Shown here: positions 30,348 through 54,141 of the stretch, piece after piece | How positions within the stretch are numbered: the first letter of the stretch is position 1 | How the letters are laid out: each line of letters begins with the position of its first letter | NCBI GenBank assembly: GCA_013178165.1 | Contig: JABLXG010000015.1 | Location: forward strand, 1-64,000 | Direction: 5' to 3' | DNA length: 64,000 nt | From: Anaerolineae bacterium | GTDB taxonomy: Bacteria; Chloroflexota; Anaerolineae; Aggregatilineales; Ch27 | Translations under genes and position numbers: made by a program | Notes under the pieces: model-generated | What the model saw: only the letters and a program-made list of their open reading frames with translations | The model's database searches: none | What the model was told of the DNA's origin: nothing

Positions 30348-31214
30348 CTAGACAGCTAGATCGAACGGTAGATCACTAATATCTCTTAAGCGCCTTCCTT
30401 CAATCATAGTACAAAGCATATCCCATTGATCTTCAGTGTTATGGGTTTCCTTTACAGCTTGGCTTAGTTCTGGAAGTGCAAAATGATAGACACAATCCAA
30501 ATCTCCTGTCCCAAGTGCGAGAGTGGCAATTCGCGTTGGAAGTGGCTCAGCAGTTACCGCAACAACATGAGGTAGATGGCCCTTACGATTACGAATTAAG
30601 TTAAGAGCCTCTGTGCGTGTATTCTGTGATCTATCACTGCGTATAGTCCATTTGCACGAAATGCTGGCATGCAAGATGGGCGAAGGTTGCTGACGGTTGC
30701 ATTCTCGAAGAGGTGTGAAACTTACAATGCCTACCGTATCGTCCACAAGTGCCTCCCTACTATTAATCTCCTTATCTGAGACTGAGTATCTGGCAATAAT
30801 AATGTCTGGTTTCACAACATAGTCGCTTCCAAGAGCAGAGGCCAAATCCTTATTTGATTTCAGGATAGCTGCCACGCTAGCAAGATGTTCATACTGTTCA
30901 AAAGTGGAGATGTCCGTATCCGTGGTTTTGTACAGCCAATGCCCTGGTCGTAGATGAGAAAGGCTTCGAAAGGCTTGCTCAAGGAAATCACACGTTGCTT
31001 GCTCAAAAAGCCTTCCGGCGCTCTGTTCAGACAGTTCTGTTTCATTGGTAGTATACCTCAATTGTCTCATAATACTAAATGATATGCTAATACTTCTAGG
31101 ATTGCTTACATCAGCAAAATTAGGATATTTCTCCCCTGTCTTACTAATTCTTATTCGAATAATTTCATCGCTAATTCGCTGGTGATACTTTCGGCGTAGA
31201 TCACTTATGGTCAT
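30348..31214 (-). CDS. Type II restriction endonuclease, NgoMIV-like
   Basis: 288 aa from ATG 31214, whose first 14 bp overlap the methyltransferase end; a longer frame to 31295 would overlap by 95 bp. NgoMIV is about 286 aa with active-site residues Glu70, Asp140, Ser185, Lys187, Glu201 (recalled, not looked up). Here Glu71, Asp137 (KPDIII), Ser186-Cys187-Lys188 (SISCKW) and Glu202 (RTEALNLIRNRKG) fall at almost the same spacing. NgoMIV cuts GCCGGC to leave 4-nt ends; the target here is inferred. Codon use and base composition are much more AT-rich than the flanks, indicating horizontal transfer. Confidence 0.82.
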   Translation of the reverse strand: MTISDLRRKYHQRISDEIIRIRISKTGEKYPNFADVSNPRSISISFSIMRQLRYTTNETELSEQSAGRLFEQATCDFLEQAFRSLSHLRPGHWLYKTTDTDISTFEQYEHLASVAAILKSNKDLASALGSDYVVKPDIIIARYSVSDKEINSREALVDDTVGIVSFTPLRECNRQQPSPILHASISCKWTIRSDRSQNTRTEALNLIRNRKGHLPHVVAVTAEPLPTRIATLALGTGDLDCVYHFALPELSQAVKETHNTEDQWDMLCTMIEGRRLRDISDLPFDLAV

Positions 31215-32619
31215 TGTTGCCCTGTCCTGATATTGGTTTGTAAAAGCCAATGATAAATTCCTCATGCATTCTCTGTTCGATTTGTGAGTTACCATCTATA
31301 GTGGCGCCAGCTGGTAACATGCGTCGATTGCGATCCAGATTCCTTACGCCAATCGCAGGAATCTCAAATCCAATGTGCTTACCAATCTCTGCTAAACACA
31401 GGTCAATTTGCGTGTCGATCTCCCTGATAACAGAAGTACCTACAACTACAATTGCCGCTTTGCCAGGGCGCAAAACGCGGTACATCTCTTTCAGTACAAG
31501 AGTCATTTCCGAATAGTAGCGATGAACAGCTTGCGCCTTTTTCCTGTCAAGTTGGCCGACGCTGTGCACTACCTGATGGACAACACTAGGCAAGTCAAGC
31601 AGTGTCGTGTCCGAAACTGCTTCCCCGCCGATATACGCTTTTCGCTTGTTTCCAAGCTCTTGAATTGGGTAGCCTAACCATACCAATGAGAACTTATGCG
31701 CACGCATATAGTCGATCGCATTTGATATATAAGGGGGTGAAGTCACAATCAAATCTACCGTCTCATTGTCTAGCGGTAACTGCTGTGCATCGGCGAATTG
31801 TATCCTTGGAGAAATCATGTCCGGTGTGTATCGAATGAGACCTGACAGGTTGCGCTGTAACCGCTTTTCAAACTCCTCTATAGGTGAATGCAAAGTCTTG
31901 GTTAGCAATCTCACACGTCGCGAATCGCTGCGAGCGGTATCTTCCCCCAGAATAATCTCTCCACTCTGAGACAAAACTACCTTTGCTCTATGTGGACGTG
32001 TATGTGCCAGGTCAAAAGCTAGAGATACACCACCCGATTTTGTAATGATAATGCTTGAAAGAATTACTGAAAAGAAATTCCTAAGTTCAAGATCAGTTAA
32101 CTTCTCTATCTGAATTACCAAAGCAACAAGCTCAAGTTGGGTTGGGGGCGCAAACCAGTAGTCAATAAATTCTCTTGTTTTATTGTCAAACCGTGTAGCC
32201 AATTCACCTAAAAGCATCTCCCGATTGTTCAAAGCTAATGATGCTTGATGAATAATTCGTTGACCGGCACCTTTGATCTGTTCAATATCTACTTTAGACG
32301 TTTTCACTTTAGAAAGACGAACAGCCAAAGGATCAATATCAAACCCAATCGGCTTGCGTCCAGACAGTAAAGCCTCGACCACTGTCGTTCCTGATCCCAT
32401 CATTGGATCAAGAACAATGTCGCCTGGTTCTGTAAGTCCTTCAATAAACTTCCGAGGTAACTGAGGAGGAAACTTTGCAGGAAAAGCGTGAAAGTTGTGT
32501 GACGCATAATTACTAGGCTGATCATGAAAATTCAGATCGCCTTTTAATAGGCTGATTAGCTTCTCACGATAAGCTAATCCAAGAGATATCGCCGCTGTAT
32601 TATGAATTTTGCTTGGCAT
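31201..32619 (-). CDS. DNA methyltransferase of the restriction-modification pair (TSPPY, N4-cytosine or N6-adenine type)
   Basis: 472 aa from ATG 32619. An upstream in-frame start at 32685 is less likely because a TATAAT -10 (minus strand, 32648-32653) lies inside that extension. The SAM motif LDPMMGSGTT is at 70-79, preceded by FPAKFPPQLPRKFI. The catalytic TSPPY motif is near residue 291, separated by a ~200-residue region that may hold target recognition. TSPPY is usual for exocyclic-amine methylation, mostly N4-cytosine. It protects host DNA from the endonuclease encoded downstream and overlapping. Confidence 0.87.
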   Translation of the reverse strand: MPSKIHNTAAISLGLAYREKLISLLKGDLNFHDQPSNYASHNFHAFPAKFPPQLPRKFIEGLTEPGDIVLDPMMGSGTTVVEALLSGRKPIGFDIDPLAVRLSKVKTSKVDIEQIKGAGQRIIHQASLALNNREMLLGELATRFDNKTREFIDYWFAPPTQLELVALVIQIEKLTDLELRNFFSVILSSIIITKSGGVSLAFDLAHTRPHRAKVVLSQSGEIILGEDTARSDSRRVRLLTKTLHSPIEEFEKRLQRNLSGLIRYTPDMISPRIQFADAQQLPLDNETVDLIVTSPPYISNAIDYMRAHKFSLVWLGYPIQELGNKRKAYIGGEAVSDTTLLDLPSVVHQVVHSVGQLDRKKAQAVHRYYSEMTLVLKEMYRVLRPGKAAIVVVGTSVIREIDTQIDLCLAEIGKHIGFEIPAIGVRNLDRNRRMLPAGATIDGNSQIEQRMHEEFIIGFYKPISGQGNNDHK

Positions 32620-32704
32620 ATTCAGTGTATTTGTATACCTTTCTAGTATTATAACAAACAGATTACAGTCTGCACACGAAACCAATGTTCGCCAGGAAGG
32701 TTAA

Positions 32705-34079: not shown

Positions 34080-34182
34080 AGCGCCCGACCCATCCGGCGT
34101 GTTTCCAACGGTCTTCAAACCAATTTCTACCTACAAGGGCGGCGCCCCGGTCGATTTGTGACTGCGGGCGCATGTTTTGCGA

Positions 34183-34212
34183 CCCGGCGGTGTTTTTTCA
34201 ACACCGGGTTTA
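34183..34212 (+). terminator. Hairpin after the response regulator
   Basis: A CCCGG..GTGTT arm (34183-34194, with a 2-nt bulge) and AACACCGGG (34200-34208) are followed by TTTACG. It is a plausible intrinsic terminator about 100 bp after the stop. Confidence 0.5.
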
Positions 34213-34284
34213 CGACCGCCATGTTGTAACTTATCTTTGCTGCATTATGTATTGTCTATTTATGGCTCATATGGAGGGACTATC

Positions 34285-36675
34285 ATGACGCAAAGGCAGC
34301 GATTGAACAGGTTTTGGCTACCGTTGATGGCGCTGGCGATTGTGGCGGTGCTGACCGCGTCCGTCGTGCTGGCGGACAATGTTCAGAACGATGTGGTTGC
34401 CGGCGGCAACGACACATTTACTCTTGGCAGCTCAACGAGCGTAAACTACAAAATCACTGCTAACAGTGGTGATGGGCAGGCGGGCTGCAATGCCGCAGAT
34501 ACCTCCCCTGCCACAGTAACCATCAACATCCCGCCAGGGGTCACGGCCACACCGGGCAGCCTGACGTTTACATCGTGTGGCAATTGGCAGTCAGTTGTTT
34601 TTACCGCAAGTGCCGTGGGTGACTACTCGATCACAGTCAGTGTAAGTGACAGCGGTCCTGGCACCTACAACACCAATCCCGCCACCTTCACCCTGCACGT
34701 CCTCCCACCACCCGACACCACCCCGCCCGTGATCACGCCCAGCGTCAGCGGCACATCAGGCAACAATGGCTGGTATAAAAGCGATGTGACGGTCAGCTGG
34801 ACTGTCTCCGATTCTGAATCGGCGATCTCGTCGTCCTCCGGCTGCGGCACAACCACCATCAACTACGATACCAGCGGCGTTACCCTGACCTGCACCGCGA
34901 CCAGCGCCGGCGGCACCAGCTCACAGTCGGTGACGATCAAACGTGACGCGACCCCACCAACCATTAGCGGGGCAGCAGCGCCTGCGCCTGTTGGTGGCTG
35001 GAACAACACGGACGTGACCGTATCGTTCACGTGTGGGGATGAAATGTCAGGTGTTGCCTCCTGTGGCCCGAACGTGACCCTGAGCGCTGAAGGTGCAGGG
35101 CAGTCTGTAACAGGCACGGCAGTTGATAACGCAGGTAACAGCGCCTCGGCTACCGTGTCCGGCATCAACATCGACAAGACCGCGCCGGTGATCACACCTA
35201 CAGTCAGCGGCACATCAGGCAACAATGGTTGGTACGTGAGCGATGTGGCGGTCAGCTGGGCATATGCCGATATTTCCCCCGTAACCGTTACTGGCTGCGA
35301 CTCAACAACCATCAGCGCCGATACAGCCGGCACGACCCTGACCTGCACCGCGACCAGCGCCGGCGGCACCAGCTCACAGTCGGTGACGATCAAACGTGAC
35401 GCGACCCCACCGACTATTACCGGGTCACGTTCACCTGTTGCGAACAGCTATGGGTGGAATAATGAGGACGTGACCGTATCGTTCACGTGTACCGACGCAA
35501 CATCAGGTCTTGCATCCTGCACGTCTGACACCACACTCAGCAGCGAAGGTGCAGGGCAGTTTGTTACCGGCAACGCGACTGACAATGCAGGTAACAGCGC
35601 CACCGCGACCGTGTCCGACATCAACATCGACAAGACCGCGCCGACCATTACCGGGTCACGTTCACCTGCTGCGAACAGCTACGGGTGGAACAATGAGGAC
35701 GTGACCGTATCGTTCACGTGTGGGGATAATCTGTCGGGTGTGGCCTCCTGCTCCGACCCGACCACAGTGAGCACCGAGGGCGAGAACCAGTCGGTGACCG
35801 GCAACGTGACCGACAAGGCTGGCAACAGCGCCACCGCGACCGTGTCCGACATCAACATCGACAAGACCGCGCCCTCGATTACCGCCTCCTATCCTGCACC
35901 CAACAGCAATGGCTGGTATAACACGAACGTCACCATCCACTTCGCGTGTGAGGATAGCCTGTCCGGCATTGTTTCCTGCCCCGCTGATATCACTCTTGGC
36001 GCGATCGAGGGGAGCAATCTCGGAGCATCAGGCACAGTGGCTGATAAGGCTGGTAACGGCGCCACCGCGACCGTGTCCGACATCAACATCGACAAGACCG
36101 CGCCTGTGGTCAGCGTAACCGGTGTTGTTGACGGCGCGACCTACACCCTCGGCTCTGTGCCGGTGGCGGGTTGCAGCACTGATGATGCGCTGTCCGGTGT
36201 AGCAACTCCGGCAAGCCTGGAGAGCAGCTATCCCGGTGGTGTGGGGACGTTCACCGCGACCTGCAGCGGGGCGCTGGATTACGCAGGCAACCCCGGCAGC
36301 GCCAGCGTCACCTACCGCGTGATCTACGACTGGAACGGCTTCTTCCGCCCGGTGGATAACCTGCCGGTCGTGAATCGGGTCAAGGCAGGCAGCGCTATCC
36401 CGATCAAATTCAGCCTTAGCGGGTATCAGGGCATGAGCATCTTCGCGGCGAGGTCTCCTGCTTCTGGAACCGTTCCTTGTGACTCGACAGCGCAGGTCGA
36501 CCTCGTGGAAGAAACAGTGACAGCTGGTGGTAGCAGCCTGAACTATGACCCACTCGCTGACCAGTATATCTACGTCTGGAAGACCGAACGGAGCTGGGGT
36601 GGTACCTGCCGGCAGCTTGTCGTCAGGCTGAATGACGGCACGGAGCACAGGGCCAACTTCAACTTCACCCGTTAA
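34285..36675 (+). CDS. Secreted repeat protein with Ig-like units and a C-terminal PxKF domain
   Basis: 796 aa from ATG 34285 (GGAGGGAC ribosome site). A signal peptide spans residues 1-~30. A calx-beta/Ig-like N-domain is followed by seven units that each start D(T/A/K)T.P.I and run about 80 residues, with NGWY/GWNN..DVTVSF.C and GNSATATVSDINIDK phrases. The C-terminal ~130 residues contain NGFFRPVDNLPVVN and GSAIPIKFSLSG, the PxKF domain common at the ends of bacterial surface proteins. Paired cysteines in most units suggest disulfides outside the cell. DNA copies of adjacent units are nearly identical over tens of bases, so the repeat number may vary. Confidence 0.85.
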   Translation: MTQRQRLNRFWLPLMALAIVAVLTASVVLADNVQNDVVAGGNDTFTLGSSTSVNYKITANSGDGQAGCNAADTSPATVTINIPPGVTATPGSLTFTSCGNWQSVVFTASAVGDYSITVSVSDSGPGTYNTNPATFTLHVLPPPDTTPPVITPSVSGTSGNNGWYKSDVTVSWTVSDSESAISSSSGCGTTTINYDTSGVTLTCTATSAGGTSSQSVTIKRDATPPTISGAAAPAPVGGWNNTDVTVSFTCGDEMSGVASCGPNVTLSAEGAGQSVTGTAVDNAGNSASATVSGINIDKTAPVITPTVSGTSGNNGWYVSDVAVSWAYADISPVTVTGCDSTTISADTAGTTLTCTATSAGGTSSQSVTIKRDATPPTITGSRSPVANSYGWNNEDVTVSFTCTDATSGLASCTSDTTLSSEGAGQFVTGNATDNAGNSATATVSDINIDKTAPTITGSRSPAANSYGWNNEDVTVSFTCGDNLSGVASCSDPTTVSTEGENQSVTGNVTDKAGNSATATVSDINIDKTAPSITASYPAPNSNGWYNTNVTIHFACEDSLSGIVSCPADITLGAIEGSNLGASGTVADKAGNGATATVSDINIDKTAPVVSVTGVVDGATYTLGSVPVAGCSTDDALSGVATPASLESSYPGGVGTFTATCSGALDYAGNPGSASVTYRVIYDWNGFFRPVDNLPVVNRVKAGSAIPIKFSLSGYQGMSIFAARSPASGTVPCDSTAQVDLVEETVTAGGSSLNYDPLADQYIYVWKTERSWGGTCRQLVVRLNDGTEHRANFNFTR

Positions 36676-36708: not shown

Positions 36709-36740
36709 GGGGCCAGCCTGCAGGGGCTGGCCCCCTTTGT
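36709..36740 (+). terminator. Intrinsic terminator of the PxKF gene
   Basis: GGGGCCAGCC (36709-36718) pairs perfectly with GGCTGGCCCC (36725-36734), followed by CTTTGTT. It lies 33 bp after the stop and separates this gene from the phage-like module. Confidence 0.8.
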
Positions 36741-36897: not shown

Positions 36898-38790
36898 ATG
36901 AGTCACACCGCCAGCACCGCCGCCGTCAAGGCGATCGACGGGGATCGCATCGGCGGCTACCTGATCGTCTGGGGCGACTCCGCCCATCCCGACCTGCACG
37001 GCGAATACTTCACGCCGGAGACCGACCTGGCGCTGGACTGGTACCCGCGCCGCCCGGTGCTCTACCAGCACGGGCTGGATGGCGCGGTCGGGCCGGCGCT
37101 GGTCGGGGTCATCGACACCCTGCGCGCTGATACAACCGGGCTGTGGGCAGAAGCGCAGCTTGCGCCGCGCCGGGAAGGGCTGGGCGAGGCCCTCCGCGCC
37201 CTGATTGCGCGCGGAATTCTGGCCTGGAGCAGCGGCAGCCTGCCCCACCTGGTCGAAGTCGCTGCCGATGGGCGTATCCTGCGCTGGCCCATCGTCGAGG
37301 GCAGCCTGACTCCGACGCCCGCCGAGCCGCGCCGCACCTCCGTGCGGGCGATCAAGGACGCCTACGCGGCCCTGGGCCTCAGCCTGGAGCGGCTGACGCC
37401 CGGCGGCGCGTCCCCTGATCCCCGTGCTGACCTGACCCTGACTCGAAAGGAGCATCCTCCTGTGAACCGCGAGATGAAGACTCACGAGGATATTCTGGCG
37501 GCGGTCAATGCCGCTCTTGATGAGCGGGCCGCTCTGAACGAGCGGGCCGCTCAGGACGATCCGCCCGCCGAGCGCCGCGCACTCAAGCGCCTGCCGACCG
37601 GCGATCCGGTGGAGGCGGCCAAAGCCCTGGCTGCGATCGAGGTCGGCAGCCCTTACGATGGCCTGAGCGCGCTGGACATGGCGCACGGCTACGTCATGCT
37701 GCGGGCGGTCAAAGGGTTCCGCGGGGTTTCCGAGCGTTATGCCAACGCTCTGGCCTACAAGGTACGCCGGGCCGGGCTGAGCGCGATCAAAGCCGACGAG
37801 CTGAGCTATAGCACGCAGTCCGGCTACGGCGACGAATGGGTGCCCGACCTGTGGAGCGCCGAGTTATGGCGGCAGGCTCGCCTGGACAACGTGATCCTGC
37901 CCCTGCTGCGGGCGGTGGAGATGCCCTCCAACCCCTACGAACTGCCGATCGAAGGCGCAGACCCGACCGTCTACTACGTGCCGGAGACGACCGACGAGGC
38001 CGAGCTGGTGCTGGGCAGCGGTAACCCGATCCCGGATAGCAAGATCGGCTCCGCCAAGGTCACCCTGGCGGCGAAGAAGCTGGCCCTGCGCGTCGGCTTC
38101 AGCGCGGAACTGGCGGAGGATAGCCTGGTGCCCGTGCTGAGCATGTACCGCGAGCAGGCCATGCGTGCCCTGGCCGCCGCTATCGACAGTGTGATCCTCA
38201 ACGGCGACACGACCACCGCCGCCACTGGCAACATCAACAGCGATAACGCCGCGCCGCCCGCCGGAGCTACCTACCTGGCCTTTGACGGCCTGCGTAAGCT
38301 GCCGCTGGTGACGACCACGGCCAACGCTATCAGCGCCGGGGGCGATCCTACCCTGGCCCTGCTGCGCCAGGCACGCTTCAGCATGGCCCACCGCTACAGC
38401 GTCAATCCGCGTCACCTGGCCTGGATCGTCGACGGTGGGACATACGCCAAACTGCTGGGCCTGAGCGAGTTCCTGACGATGGACAAGGCCGGGCCGGGAG
38501 CTACCGCCCTGACCGGCCAGATCGGCTTTGTGGATGGGATTCCGGTGCTGGTCTCGGCGGAAATGCCGCTGACCATGGCCGACGGCAAGGTGGACACGAC
38601 CGGCAACAGCAAGGGTCAGGCGCTGTGCGTCTACCGTCCCGGCTGGATCGTGGGCTACCGCCGCCGGATCGCCGCCTCGGTGGACTACCTGCCGTACTAT
38701 GACGCCTACCAGATGACGGCCACCGTCCGGCTGGGGCTGGCCCGGCTGGATAACGACGTCGCCGCCGTGCTCTACAACATCACGGTTTAG
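36898..38790 (+). CDS. Prohead protease fused to HK97-type major capsid protein
   Basis: 630 aa from ATG 36898, with AGGAGG 10 bp upstream (TTG 36895 is possible). Residues 1-~155 are an S78-type prohead protease: YLIVWGD..HPDLHGEYFT, catalytic His58 in LYQHG, probable nucleophile Ser112 in LAWSSGSLPH, then WPIVEGSLTPTPAEPR. Residues ~185-260 are a charged scaffold-like (delta) segment. Residues ~265-630 match an HK97-fold capsid: YSTQSGYGDEWVPDLWS, PIEGADPTVYYVPE, AKKLALRVGFSAELAEDS, and a C-terminal GYRRRIAASVDYLPYYDAYQ. Fusion of the two is uncommon but known in some tailed phages. No portal or terminase precedes it. Base composition resembles the host. Confidence 0.85.
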   Translation: MSHTASTAAVKAIDGDRIGGYLIVWGDSAHPDLHGEYFTPETDLALDWYPRRPVLYQHGLDGAVGPALVGVIDTLRADTTGLWAEAQLAPRREGLGEALRALIARGILAWSSGSLPHLVEVAADGRILRWPIVEGSLTPTPAEPRRTSVRAIKDAYAALGLSLERLTPGGASPDPRADLTLTRKEHPPVNREMKTHEDILAAVNAALDERAALNERAAQDDPPAERRALKRLPTGDPVEAAKALAAIEVGSPYDGLSALDMAHGYVMLRAVKGFRGVSERYANALAYKVRRAGLSAIKADELSYSTQSGYGDEWVPDLWSAELWRQARLDNVILPLLRAVEMPSNPYELPIEGADPTVYYVPETTDEAELVLGSGNPIPDSKIGSAKVTLAAKKLALRVGFSAELAEDSLVPVLSMYREQAMRALAAAIDSVILNGDTTTAATGNINSDNAAPPAGATYLAFDGLRKLPLVTTTANAISAGGDPTLALLRQARFSMAHRYSVNPRHLAWIVDGGTYAKLLGLSEFLTMDKAGPGATALTGQIGFVDGIPVLVSAEMPLTMADGKVDTTGNSKGQALCVYRPGWIVGYRRRIAASVDYLPYYDAYQMTATVRLGLARLDNDVAAVLYNITV

Positions 38791-38809
38791 GCGTCCGGCT
38801 TAACCACCA

Positions 38810-38877
38810 TAACGCGGCGGGCGCCAGTTTGCTGCGCTCCTGCCGGATTGACCACCGCTGGTTGCTCGCCGCGTTTT
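38810..38877 (+). repeat. Long-loop inverted repeat between capsid and connector genes
   Basis: AACGCGGCGGGC (left arm, starting near 38810) pairs with GCTCGCCGCGTT (ending near 38876) with one mismatch. The stem may extend inward through CCAG/CTGG. A T-run (GTTTTCC) follows. It may attenuate transcription so that capsid is made in excess of connector and tail proteins. Confidence 0.5.
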
Positions 38878-38943
38878 CCTGATCGCCCGGCTACCTGTCA
38901 CTTGCTGCTGCCCCTGTCTCTATCCTGACCGGAGGAGAACCTC

Positions 38944-39768
38944 ATGATCACCTACGCCACCCTGACCCAGTTCCGGGCGCGGCTGGGCCTGCCCGCCGGG
39001 GACGCCGAAACGGATGCCCGGCTGCTCGTCGCCCTGCGCCAGGCCACCGCCCAGATCGATCGCTTCACCGCCCGCCGCTTCGCCCCGGTCGTCCAGACCC
39101 GGCGCTACGCCTTTCACGATCCGTACAGCCTGCGCCTGGACCTTGACCTGCTGGAGTTGCTGGCAATCACCAACGGCGACGGGCAGGCCATCCCGCCGGA
39201 AGCGGCCCTGCTCCTGCCGGAAGGCGACGGTCCCAGGCACGCCATCCTGCTCCAGCCAGCGGCGGGGGTGTGGTTTGTGCCGGGGGAGAACCCGGCGGCG
39301 GCCATCGCCGTGCGTGGCATCTGGGGAACGCATGACGCCTGGTCAGAAGCCTGGCGCAGCTCCGGGGATGCCCTGGCCGCCGCGGTAGAGGCAGACACAG
39401 GCCAGATCGCGGTCGGCGACGCGGATGGCGCCGACGCGGCGGGCGTATCGCCGCGCTTCCAGGCCGGGCAACTCCTGCGCCTGGGTGACGAATACCTGCA
39501 CGTCACCGCCGTCGACGTAACGACGGACACGCTGAGCGTCATCCGGGGCGTGCGCGGCACGACCGCCGCCAGCCATGCCGCGGGCGCGTCACTGGCGATC
39601 TATCTGCCGCCGGAGGACGTGACGGCGCTGTGTCTGCGCTGGGCGGCCTGGCTCTACCAGCAGGCTGACGCCGCTATCGGGGCCGGGGCGGACTGGCTCT
39701 ACCCGCCTGACCTGCCCGACGATCTGCACCGCCTGGCCGCGCCGCTGCGCTACGTCCGCGTGGCCTGA
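38944..39768 (+). CDS. Phage head-tail connector (gp6-like) protein
   Basis: 274 aa with a strong GGAGGAG ribosome site. The N-terminal ~110 residues (ATLTQFRARLGLP..., VALRQATAQIDRFTARRFAPV) look like the helical gp6/adaptor fold that closes the capsid portal ring. The middle (~125-215) contains LLRLGDEYLHVTAV and LSVIRGVRGTTAASHAAG, phrases seen in phage structural proteins. The C-terminus returns to helices (EDVTALCLRWAAWLYQQADA). It is about twice the length of simple gp6 adaptors, so a domain has been inserted. Position directly after the capsid gene supports the call. Confidence 0.7.
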   Translation: MITYATLTQFRARLGLPAGDAETDARLLVALRQATAQIDRFTARRFAPVVQTRRYAFHDPYSLRLDLDLLELLAITNGDGQAIPPEAALLLPEGDGPRHAILLQPAAGVWFVPGENPAAAIAVRGIWGTHDAWSEAWRSSGDALAAAVEADTGQIAVGDADGADAAGVSPRFQAGQLLRLGDEYLHVTAVDVTTDTLSVIRGVRGTTAASHAAGASLAIYLPPEDVTALCLRWAAWLYQQADAAIGAGADWLYPPDLPDDLHRLAAPLRYVRVA

Positions 39769-39842
39769 GCGACTTCAGCCCTTTTTCCCCCGGCCCCTTT
39801 CCTCTCTCCATTAGCCGATGGGGAATGGGTGAAGCAGGAGGC

Positions 39843-41390
39843 ATGATGAGCGTGCTCTATCACATCCAGGTGGACTGGGACGACGACGGTGACTTTGACC
39901 GGCCCGACGAGACGCTTGACCGGGACGTGATCGGTGCGGAATGGGCGCTGGGCCTCGATGCGCCGGACGACTGCCTGGCCGCGCCCTCGCGGGCGACGAT
40001 CACGGTGCGCGATCCGGGCGGGCGCTACCGCCCGGAGAACATCGCCGGACCGCTCTATGGCGCGCTTGTTCCGCGCAAGAAGGTCGTCATCAGCAGCAGT
40101 GCAAGCGGCGTGACGCGGGCGCACTTCACCGGTTGGATCGAGACTATCGCACCGGGACGTGACCGCACTACCGCGATCGCCTGCTCTGGCGTGGAGGATC
40201 TGCTGCACCGCGCCGAGGTCTTCCTCCCGCCGGCAACCGATTGCAGCGCCGACGGGCTGATTGCCGCTGTACTGGAACAGGTTGACCATCCCCCGGCTTT
40301 GCTCGGCTACTGGCGGCTGGGGCTGGCCCGGCTGGGCGTCGATACACGCCTGCCCGACCTGACGACCGGCGCTGACCTGGAGCCAGGCCGCACAATCTTC
40401 CCGTACACAGGCGATTCCTGGGCCGCTGGCCTGAACGCCTGGGAAGTGATCCGGGCAGCGGTCGAGGCGGAGCGCGGGCTGTGTTTCGTCAGCCGCGAAG
40501 GGCGGCTGATCTTCTGGAACCGCCACCACCTGGTGGGGCCGGTCACGCCTGTCCTGACACTTGGCAGGCGGGAGGCGGCTTTCACGTCGCCGGTGGCCGG
40601 GGCGCGGATGATCAACCGGGCGGAGGTTACCTGCCACCCGCGCGAGGTCGGCGGCAGCCCAGAGACGCTGTGGACGCTGTGCGCCCCGCTGCGGCTGCCG
40701 CCGGGCGAAGCGCGGACGATCCGCGCCCGCTACGCTGATGAGGTCGGCGCACCGCTCGGCGCGCTGTCGCTGCTTGCGCCTGTCGCGGGGACGGATTACA
40801 GCGCCAACGACCAGCGCGACGGCTCCGGCCAGGATTGCACCGCCGCCGTGACCGTCGCGGTGGAAGCCGGGGCAGGTAGCGCCCGCCTGACCTTTTACAA
40901 CAGCCATCCAGCGGCGGTTTACGTGCTGCCGGGGGCGCGCCTGCGCGGGATCGCCATCCGCGACCGGGGCCGGATCACCGCCGCTGCTGAGGACGGGGCC
41001 AGCATCCTGCGCTACGGGCGGCGTGTCCGGCGGTTGGACCTGCCGCTGCTCGGCCAGCCTGACGCGGCGGCCAGCCTCGCCCGCCATCTGGTCAACGAAG
41101 GGAGCGCCCCGCGTGGTCTGGTCGCGACAGTGACGGTGCACGGGGAGACTAACGCTGCCCTGCTGGACGCCATCCTGGGCCTGACCATCGGCGACGCCAT
41201 CCGCCTGGCCGATCCGGGGAACGGCCACGACGGCCTGTACCATATCGTTGGAGAGTGCCATACGCTTTCCGGCGGAGGGGCACACCACGCCGTCACCTGG
41301 ACGCTGCGCCCGGTCTCCCCGCTGGTCTACTGGCGACTGGGTATGCCGGGCGCGGGTGAGCTGGGAGAGGCTACGCGGGTGATCTACTAG
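39843..41390 (+). CDS. Phage tail-like structural protein
   Basis: 515 aa from ATG 39843 (GCAGGAGG). It starts LYHIQVDWDDDGDFD, an Asp-rich start I associate with phage tail proteins. The motifs ATITVRDPGGRYRPEN and GWIETIAPG resemble the hub or distal-tail fold found in siphovirus tail tips. No catalytic motif is evident. It lies 74 bp after the connector gene on the same strand and closes the phage-like module; the next gene is a metabolic oxidoreductase with its own promoter. A tail-tip or baseplate role is inferred from these patterns and context. Confidence 0.6.
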   Translation: MMSVLYHIQVDWDDDGDFDRPDETLDRDVIGAEWALGLDAPDDCLAAPSRATITVRDPGGRYRPENIAGPLYGALVPRKKVVISSSASGVTRAHFTGWIETIAPGRDRTTAIACSGVEDLLHRAEVFLPPATDCSADGLIAAVLEQVDHPPALLGYWRLGLARLGVDTRLPDLTTGADLEPGRTIFPYTGDSWAAGLNAWEVIRAAVEAERGLCFVSREGRLIFWNRHHLVGPVTPVLTLGRREAAFTSPVAGARMINRAEVTCHPREVGGSPETLWTLCAPLRLPPGEARTIRARYADEVGAPLGALSLLAPVAGTDYSANDQRDGSGQDCTAAVTVAVEAGAGSARLTFYNSHPAAVYVLPGARLRGIAIRDRGRITAAAEDGASILRYGRRVRRLDLPLLGQPDAAASLARHLVNEGSAPRGLVATVTVHGETNAALLDAILGLTIGDAIRLADPGNGHDGLYHIVGECHTLSGGGAHHAVTWTLRPVSPLVYWRLGMPGAGELGEATRVIY

Positions 41391-48917: not shown

Positions 48918-49172
48918 TGTACTACCGGGCTTCTTGGCGAACAGTTGCCAGGTAGGCATTGACGGTCTCGATGGGGCGTTTGCACTCATAGAACTGCGTC
49001 CGCGACATCCCGCGCTGACGGCACGCTTCACTCCCATCGCCCGGCGCCTGGACCAGCTCCAGCACGCTCAACCGTCGGCGTGTTACTTGCGCTTCGGCAG
49101 TTATGCGCCTCTCTCCTTTTTGCCGCTGCTATTATCTATCCGATCTGTTCGGAGAGGAAACCTAGTCGCACA
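48918..49172 (-). mobile_element. Non-autonomous IS481-like element (MITE), copy 1
   Basis: 255 bp, 97-98% identical (six differences) to 53887-54141. Ends: TGTACTACCGGGCTTC on the left, and TGTGCGACTAGGTTTC read inward from the right. These are imperfect inverted repeats. Homology between copies stops exactly at these ends. The minus strand encodes ~60 codons: TRRRLSVLELVQ...CRQRGMSRTQFYECKR, a typical IS481 helix-turn-helix start. It is joined in frame to RPIETVNAYLATVRQEAR and a stop (48922-48924), a typical transposase C-terminus. The catalytic core is gone, so the unit must be moved in trans. No target-site duplication seen. Confidence 0.8.
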
Positions 49173-53886: not shown

Positions 53887-54141
53887 TGTACTACCGGGCT
53901 TCTTGGCAAACAGTTGCCAGGCAGGCATTGACGGTCTCGATGGGGCGTTTGCACTCATAGAACTGCGTCCGCGACATCCCGCGCTGACGGCACGCTTCAC
54001 TCCCATCGCCCGGCGCCTGGACCAGCTCCAGTACGCTCAACCGTCGGCGTGTTACTTGCGCTTCGGCAGCTATGTGCCTCTCTCCTTTTTGCCGCTGCTA
54101 TTATCTATCCGATCTGTTCGGAGAGGAAACCTAGTCGTACA
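53887..54141 (-). mobile_element. Non-autonomous IS481-like element (MITE), copy 2
   Basis: 255 bp in the same orientation as copy 1, with six base differences. Ends: TGTACTACCGGGCTTC and, read inward from the right, TGTACGACTAGGTTTC (12 of 16 positions match). It has the same internally deleted transposase frame on the minus strand, with helix-turn-helix start fused in frame to the C-terminal RPIETVNAYL region. It sits inside the transposase remnant at 53826. The pair brackets the dpp operon and MOSC gene, about 5 kb, in direct orientation, so recombination between copies could delete that segment. Confidence 0.82.

Follow-up and report, generated by a model that had tools for sequence, protein, structure and literature searches.

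Gene transfer agents (GTAs) are defined by caudovirion-like particles built from proteins of caudoviricete origin, by endogenization at multiple loci, and by mostly vertical inheritance and co-diversification with their hosts; their particles encapsidate mostly random host DNA, cannot fully package the element itself, and deliver their DNA to other cells (PMC9662315). The small terminase subunits (TerS) of known GTAs also lack a helix-turn-helix (HTH) (PMC6854486, PMC11841831). Here we describe a group of phage-derived genes in an Anaerolineae bacterium (order Aggregatilineales, phylum Chloroflexota), part of which forms a module of three consecutive genes, CAP, GP6 and HUB, at positions 36898–41390 (+ strand) of a 64,000-nucleotide stretch of DNA (hereafter 'the window', meaning the whole stretch analysed). 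The window represents the first 64,000 nucleotides of contig C15 (126,323 bp), in a genome assembly (G000) of 4.19 Mb and 52 contigs. We believe, with a probability of roughly 0.66, that these genes and their counterparts on other contigs constitute a dispersed, vertically inherited GTA-like viriform whose ancestor was an HK97-type tailed phage. The literature that we searched contained no report of a GTA for Chloroflexota or Aggregatilineales; its coverage was incomplete and priority is uncertain.

The three-gene module encodes a protease-capsid fusion, an enlarged adaptor and a tail hub

The first gene (CAP; 36898..38790, + strand) is preceded by an AAGGAGG motif and encodes a prohead-protease domain (approximately residues 1–170) and an HK97-fold major capsid protein (approximately residues 285–630), joined by a linker that is free to vary across 14 orthologues. 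The protein is matched by PF05065 (E = 2.9e-11), phrog_10 (1e-19) and TIGR01554 (3e-13), with a weak match to Peptidase_S78 (0.17) at its N-terminus. Residues H58, S111–S114 and E134 of the protease domain, which we presume to correspond to the catalytic triad of HK97 gp4, are invariant in those 14 orthologues, a pattern that, as far as sequence can indicate, fits an active S78-type protease. Phage relatives (loci L032, L033, L035 and L036) carry the same protease-capsid fusion, which is therefore no peculiarity of domestication. The capsid gene of one related genome (G242) is split, with residues 4–352 encoded at C25:135542-136489 and residues 348–630 at C34:20612-21454, reflecting either a rearrangement or an assembly break.

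The second gene (GP6; 38944..39768, + strand) encodes a head-tail adaptor (approximately residues 1–135) and an added C-terminal tail-type domain (approximately residues 140–220). The adaptor portion matches phrog_442 (3e-10), while the extra half matches the tail protein profile phrog_1101 (2.5e-9) and solved tip-attachment J/minor-tail proteins (8rk3 and 8vjh). GP6 is conserved in 11 orthologues, and its double length is explained by the tail-tip-type domain that follows the gp6-like adaptor.

The third gene (HUB; 39846..41390, + strand) yielded no reliable match in sequence searches other than phrog_5313. An AlphaFold model of its product (built from 35 sequences; pLDDT 85.7) gave 7b5h as its best Foldseek match (E = 3.4e-14); the folds of Mu gp44 and T4 gp27 were matched too, and by its modelled structure the protein is a gp27-fold baseplate or tail hub. 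An ATG at 39825 would extend the open frame, but the ATG at 39846 is the likelier start, since it is preceded by AGGAGG and orthologues begin there. The profile matches and the HUB fold otherwise bear out the assignments first proposed for all three products (protease-HK97 capsid fusion, double-length gp6-like connector and tail-hub-like protein), and the three open reading frames are intact and open throughout, as had been stated.

Packaging and fibre genes are found at separate loci

The original prediction described the module as lacking packaging genes, which holds for its immediate surroundings and fails for the genome as a whole. In a related genome (G222), genes for the large terminase (TerL), portal, CAP, GP6, a 145-residue protein, HUB and a fibre-like protein occupy one stretch, with host genes interspersed. 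Using TerL and portal from that genome as queries, we found both in the genome under study, on contig C20: TerL at C20:11434-12615 and the portal at C20:13350-14384, with matches to PF04860 (1.3e-65) and phrog_2 (3e-53). A small TerS gene (C20:11202-11561) overlaps the start of TerL. A third contig carries a fibre-like gene (C10:36909-37373), which could not be reliably named from PHROGs, Pfam or NCBIfam; it is followed by a gene for a 119-residue protein that neighbours the fibre in relatives as well. The element therefore comprises at least three loci in this genome: CAP-GP6-HUB in the window (locus A), TerS-TerL-portal on C20 (locus B), and the fibre and its partner on C10 (locus C).

A misassembly, which the original prediction had named as grounds for abandoning its reading, is not the explanation for this arrangement, because in two other genomes a single contig carries both the capsid locus and the terminase locus, with about 44 kb between them in G303 (a 69-kb contig) and about 46 kb in G302. 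The loci also lie apart among host genes in independent assemblies, although all of the genes fall inside approximately 15 kb in a member of family f4 (G332).

The catalytic motifs of TerL (Walker A GRRxGKT, Walker B LDEAA, and nuclease residues D253, E306 and D386) are near-invariant in 24 sequences. Since the terminase-portal-capsid set is intact and co-inherited (see below), DNA packaging is implied. The portal gene of one genome (G055) contains an in-frame TAG (L083:1759-1761), so that the gene is broken unless the codon is a sequencing error.

In family f4, proteins that by eye combine a TIR-like domain with HEAT repeats, or a zinc ribbon with an FHA domain, recur between the portal and capsid genes or between the capsid and adaptor genes (L136 5626-6408 and 8518-9066; L138 6685-8160 and 10448-10981, on the reverse complement of the fetched stretches). 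By analogy to an immune system that controls GTA release (PMC13236601), these proteins may control or police the element.

The genes descend with their hosts under purifying selection

We examined 61 genomes of the order (with record titles of Aggregatilineales or Anaerolineae), of which 28 belong to three families: f1 (5 genomes), f2 (12) and f4 (11). CAP and HUB are each present in all 28, with CAP additionally found in G299 and G336; the portal is found in 25 of 28 and so is a full-length TerL, and the genomes in which they are missing are low-completeness or many-contig assemblies. Orthologues of the module occur as one copy per genome, and the genome under study contains a single PF05065 match. 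In the other families of the order CAP is either absent or represented by distant, prophage-like copies. A scan of named genomes identified at least 98 loci, mostly titled Aggregatilineales, Anaerolineae or Chloroflexi.

Pairwise distances for these proteins track those of RpoB (Mantel r of 0.76 for CAP, 0.86 for portal, 0.94 for TerL and 0.83 for HUB; 0 of 2000 permutations in each case). In the gene trees f1 and f4 each form a clade and f2 groups separately, and the TerL tree places all TerLs of the element in one clade (support 0.94) that is separate from phage TerLs. Three genomes (G307, G335 and G332) also hold prophages with other capsids, 30–47% identical, which provide an internal contrast.

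Ratios of nonsynonymous to synonymous substitution (dN/dS), calculated between the genome under study and a member of the same genus (G298; dS 0.24–0.43), range from 0.05 to 0.17, with values of 0.05 for TerL and portal, 0.092 for CAP, 0.144 for GP6 and 0.166 for HUB; that of a neighbouring host gene is 0.19. These sequence comparisons come close to establishing that the genes were domesticated and are kept under purifying selection. The single-copy orthologues in three families, the RpoB-tracking distances and the low dN/dS agree with the earlier suggestion of a domesticated particle kept under selection.

Contrary to the original claim of a match to the host, the module differs from its surroundings in base composition: it is 69.5% GC as compared to 63.5% for the window, the highest value among all 4.5-kb windows. 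The GC content of the head and tail genes exceeds that of their flanks in every locus measured (23 of 23 for CAP, 16 of 16 for portal, 15 of 15 for TerL and 13 of 13 for HUB). Across 102 gene-locus pairs the excess averages 4.5 points (p = 1.6e-17, an optimistic value given that the pairs are related); the fibre is the exception. The same kind of bias has been reported for alphaproteobacterial GTAs (PMC7360931).

Tail genes and small terminase

The genome under study gave no match to a tape measure profile (phrog_58) or to tail tube profiles (phrog_9522 and alignment A8). Neither did the rest of family f1, and few other carriers of the module match; strong tail tube matches are limited to G083 and G333, with weak ones elsewhere. 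Tail genes were sought using these named profiles, which diverged tube proteins could escape. An additional protein of 152 residues (k4), likewise without a reliable name from PHROGs, Pfam or NCBIfam, displays a lambda gpU-like tail terminator fold (AlphaFold pLDDT 85.4; Foldseek match to 3fz2, E = 2.4e-4); it is kept in f2 and f4. The fibre has a constant N-terminus and an exchanged remainder, which includes a tail-collar fibre domain in some genomes.

A second tail cassette, observed at L231:3-6124 (− strand) and L366:7351-13378 (+ strand), contains a fibre, two tail-tube-like genes and another HUB. The tube gene of G083, like that of L231, sits in this cassette, which has a fibre and hub of its own; the fibre has the same N-terminal anchor, and the cassette is separate from the module's own hub. 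A hub-fibre pair also occurs at L371:10923-14280 in a genome of family f5 (G262) that has no capsid, portal or TerL match; it may be what is left of this system, or the hub may be put to a different use there.

No HTH was detected by Pfam in TerS from the four f1 members that were scanned or from G191, and the segment is absent by eye from that of G055. TerS from G222, G201, G178, G242 and G270 contain HTH-like segments, with Pfam scores ranging from above to well below the cut-off. The TerS feature shared by known GTAs is thus displayed by family f1 and not by the whole order, and we read from the sequences that the f1 TerS has probably lost its DNA-binding domain.

Genomic surroundings of the module

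A terminator-like hairpin (36709..36734, + strand; an 11-bp stem and T-containing tail, identified by consensus match only) stands between the module and the gene upstream, to which it belongs. That gene (34177–36675) encodes a large secreted protein with Ig-like repeats, for which the locus stretches fetched from G298 and other f1 genomes contained no counterpart. The neighbours that could be named by Pfam include an ABC transporter, a restriction-modification pair, DUF423, a response regulator, the Ig-like protein, GFO/IDH, GH94, LacI and radical SAM proteins; no phage genes were seen among the Pfam-checked neighbours. The restriction-modification pair (30348–32685, − strand) comprises an NgoMIV-type endonuclease (PF09015, E = 3.9e-109) and an N6/N4 DNA methylase and occupies an island of 43% GC, within a window of 63.5%; the island is a recent horizontal gain. 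Open reading frames at 48934–49050 and 53903–54000 start nearly alike (ANSCQ[VA]GIDGLDGAFALIELRPRHPALTA), indicating a dispersed repeat.

Discussion

The properties by which GTAs are defined can be compared directly with those described above. Homology to caudoviricete proteins is seen for TerL, portal, capsid, adaptor and hub; the genes are endogenized on three contigs; and vertical inheritance with host co-diversification is observed across the 28 genomes of the three families (with one caveat, described below). Full packaging of the element in one particle is unlikely, since tens of kb separate its loci. Non-specific packaging of host DNA, its release and its delivery are inferred by analogy to the known systems; the HTH-less TerS of f1 is an indirect pointer to the first, and the hub and fibre genes are what speaks for delivery. 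We therefore regard the element, on its sequence, as a GTA-like system and a strong candidate, short of a proven GTA, for which independent domestication is the best reading.

Under such a reading, some condition would lead the host to transcribe loci A, B and C. CAP would assemble around the portal, with the fused protease domain excising itself and the linker. In family f1, a TerS that has no DNA-binding domain would allow the TerS-TerL complex to load host DNA unspecifically, probably by a headful mechanism. The adaptor would then close the head and hold the hub, whose fibre would bind kin cells, and cell lysis would release particles that deliver DNA.

Several observations weigh against this GTA-like reading. 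The k4 tail terminator is undetected in all five f1 genomes, and the tape measure and tail tube were not found in the genome under study with the profiles used. Most TerS of f2 and f4 keep an HTH-like domain. A consistently lower carbon content per residue relative to phage homologues was not observed, whereas low side-chain carbon is a second signature of alphaproteobacterial GTAs (PMC7360931). Finally, in the CAP tree a phage (L032) and an additional locus (L294) are sister to f1 and f2 together, so that either one domestication with later phage exchange or two domestications is possible from that topology.

The undetected tail genes bear on two proposals. In the first, the capsid was domesticated to package DNA for a purpose other than transfer, such as storing or discarding it, acting as a decoy, or serving as a short-tailed weapon. 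Retention of the head, packaging, hub and fibre genes while tube and tape measure (in the genome under study) and terminator (in f1) went undetected would suit such a role, yet the hub is conserved and the fibre combines a constant N-terminus with an interchangeable C-terminal domain, features that suggest binding to other cells, and we consider this explanation unlikely, if worth serious attention. In the second, the element is a Chloroflexota GTA cut down to head, packaging motor, adaptor, hub and fibre; the tube, tape measure and (in f1) terminator would have been lost, and the hub would sit directly on the enlarged adaptor to give a stub tail. We hold this version to be doubtful.

A capsid-forming satellite, or a split-genome phage that borrows the tails of a helper, is a quite improbable source of these genes. 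The set of TerS, TerL, portal, protease-capsid and connector resembles that of capsid-forming phage-inducible islands (cf-PICIs), which favours such an origin; however, the genes are single-copy and split among host genes, their distances track RpoB over several families, no integrase was seen nearby, and the genome under study contains neither a second PF05065 capsid nor a phrog_58 tape measure, so that no resident helper was detected.

We assign a very low probability to the persisting remnants of a decaying prophage. The TAG in the G055 portal, the split G242 capsid and the lack of a terminator in f1 would agree with decay, but frames are intact in almost all genomes and catalytic residues remain near-invariant at family-level divergence; together with the dN/dS values, this purifying selection effectively refutes it. 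An encapsulin-like nanocompartment, suggested by an HK97 fold in a stand-alone locus, is scarcely credible, because the element keeps the fused protease, portal, TerL and TerS, which evolve together with the capsid, while to our knowledge an enzyme compartment requires none of them; the conserved terminase and portal, which imply DNA packaging, likewise count against the nanocompartment or secreted device offered as alternatives in the original prediction.

If the element is a GTA, it represents a lineage in a phylum for which the literature searched describes none, spanning several families of one order of the Chloroflexota, which are rich in uncultured members; Phototrophicus methaneseepsis is a reported isolate of the wider group (PMC8941918). 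Intermediate states coexist within this clade (a 15-kb cluster in f4, such as in G332; scattered loci in f1 and f2; and TerS with or without a DNA-binding domain), and the steps from phage to GTA are therefore open to within-clade comparison. The arrangement also indicates that core GTA genes can scatter so far that prophage finders, or the reading of a single window, see nothing but orphan fragments.

Comparison with known systems

The element differs from each of the classes to which its parts might be assigned. Its portal and TerL are co-inherited with the shell gene, unlike in encapsulins, and its core genes are spread over contigs among host genes, unlike those of a prophage. Chloroflexota phages (IMG/VR L032–L036) and prophages (L056–L059) have homologous capsids, portals and adaptors, and the phage capsids that were checked are fused as well, but their genes form dense phage blocks, which in L056 and L057 include a major tail protein and/or tape measure. 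The cf-PICIs likewise combine head and packaging genes without tail genes; here, there is no integrated island, and the scattered, single-copy genes follow the host phylogeny.

BaGTA, BhGTA/VSH-1, Dd1 and VTA each correspond to a tailed phage that was domesticated independently; some are dispersed over loci, and their TerS have no detectable DNA-binding domain (PMC11841831), in which the present element resembles them. The Chloroflexota system differs in being known here from its genes. RcGTA (Rhodogtaviriformidae, in Alphaproteobacteria) shares with it caudoviricete-derived head and packaging genes at several loci, vertical descent and GC-rich genes. RcGTA also has a full head-tail cluster, whereas the genome under study contains no match to phrog_58 or to phrog_9522/A8, the profiles for tape measure and tube, and its system, too, is described from genes alone. 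The element described here further differs from RcGTA in belonging to another phylum, in its capsid-protease fusion, in the splitting of its core head and packaging genes, and in the placement of its hub beside the capsid.

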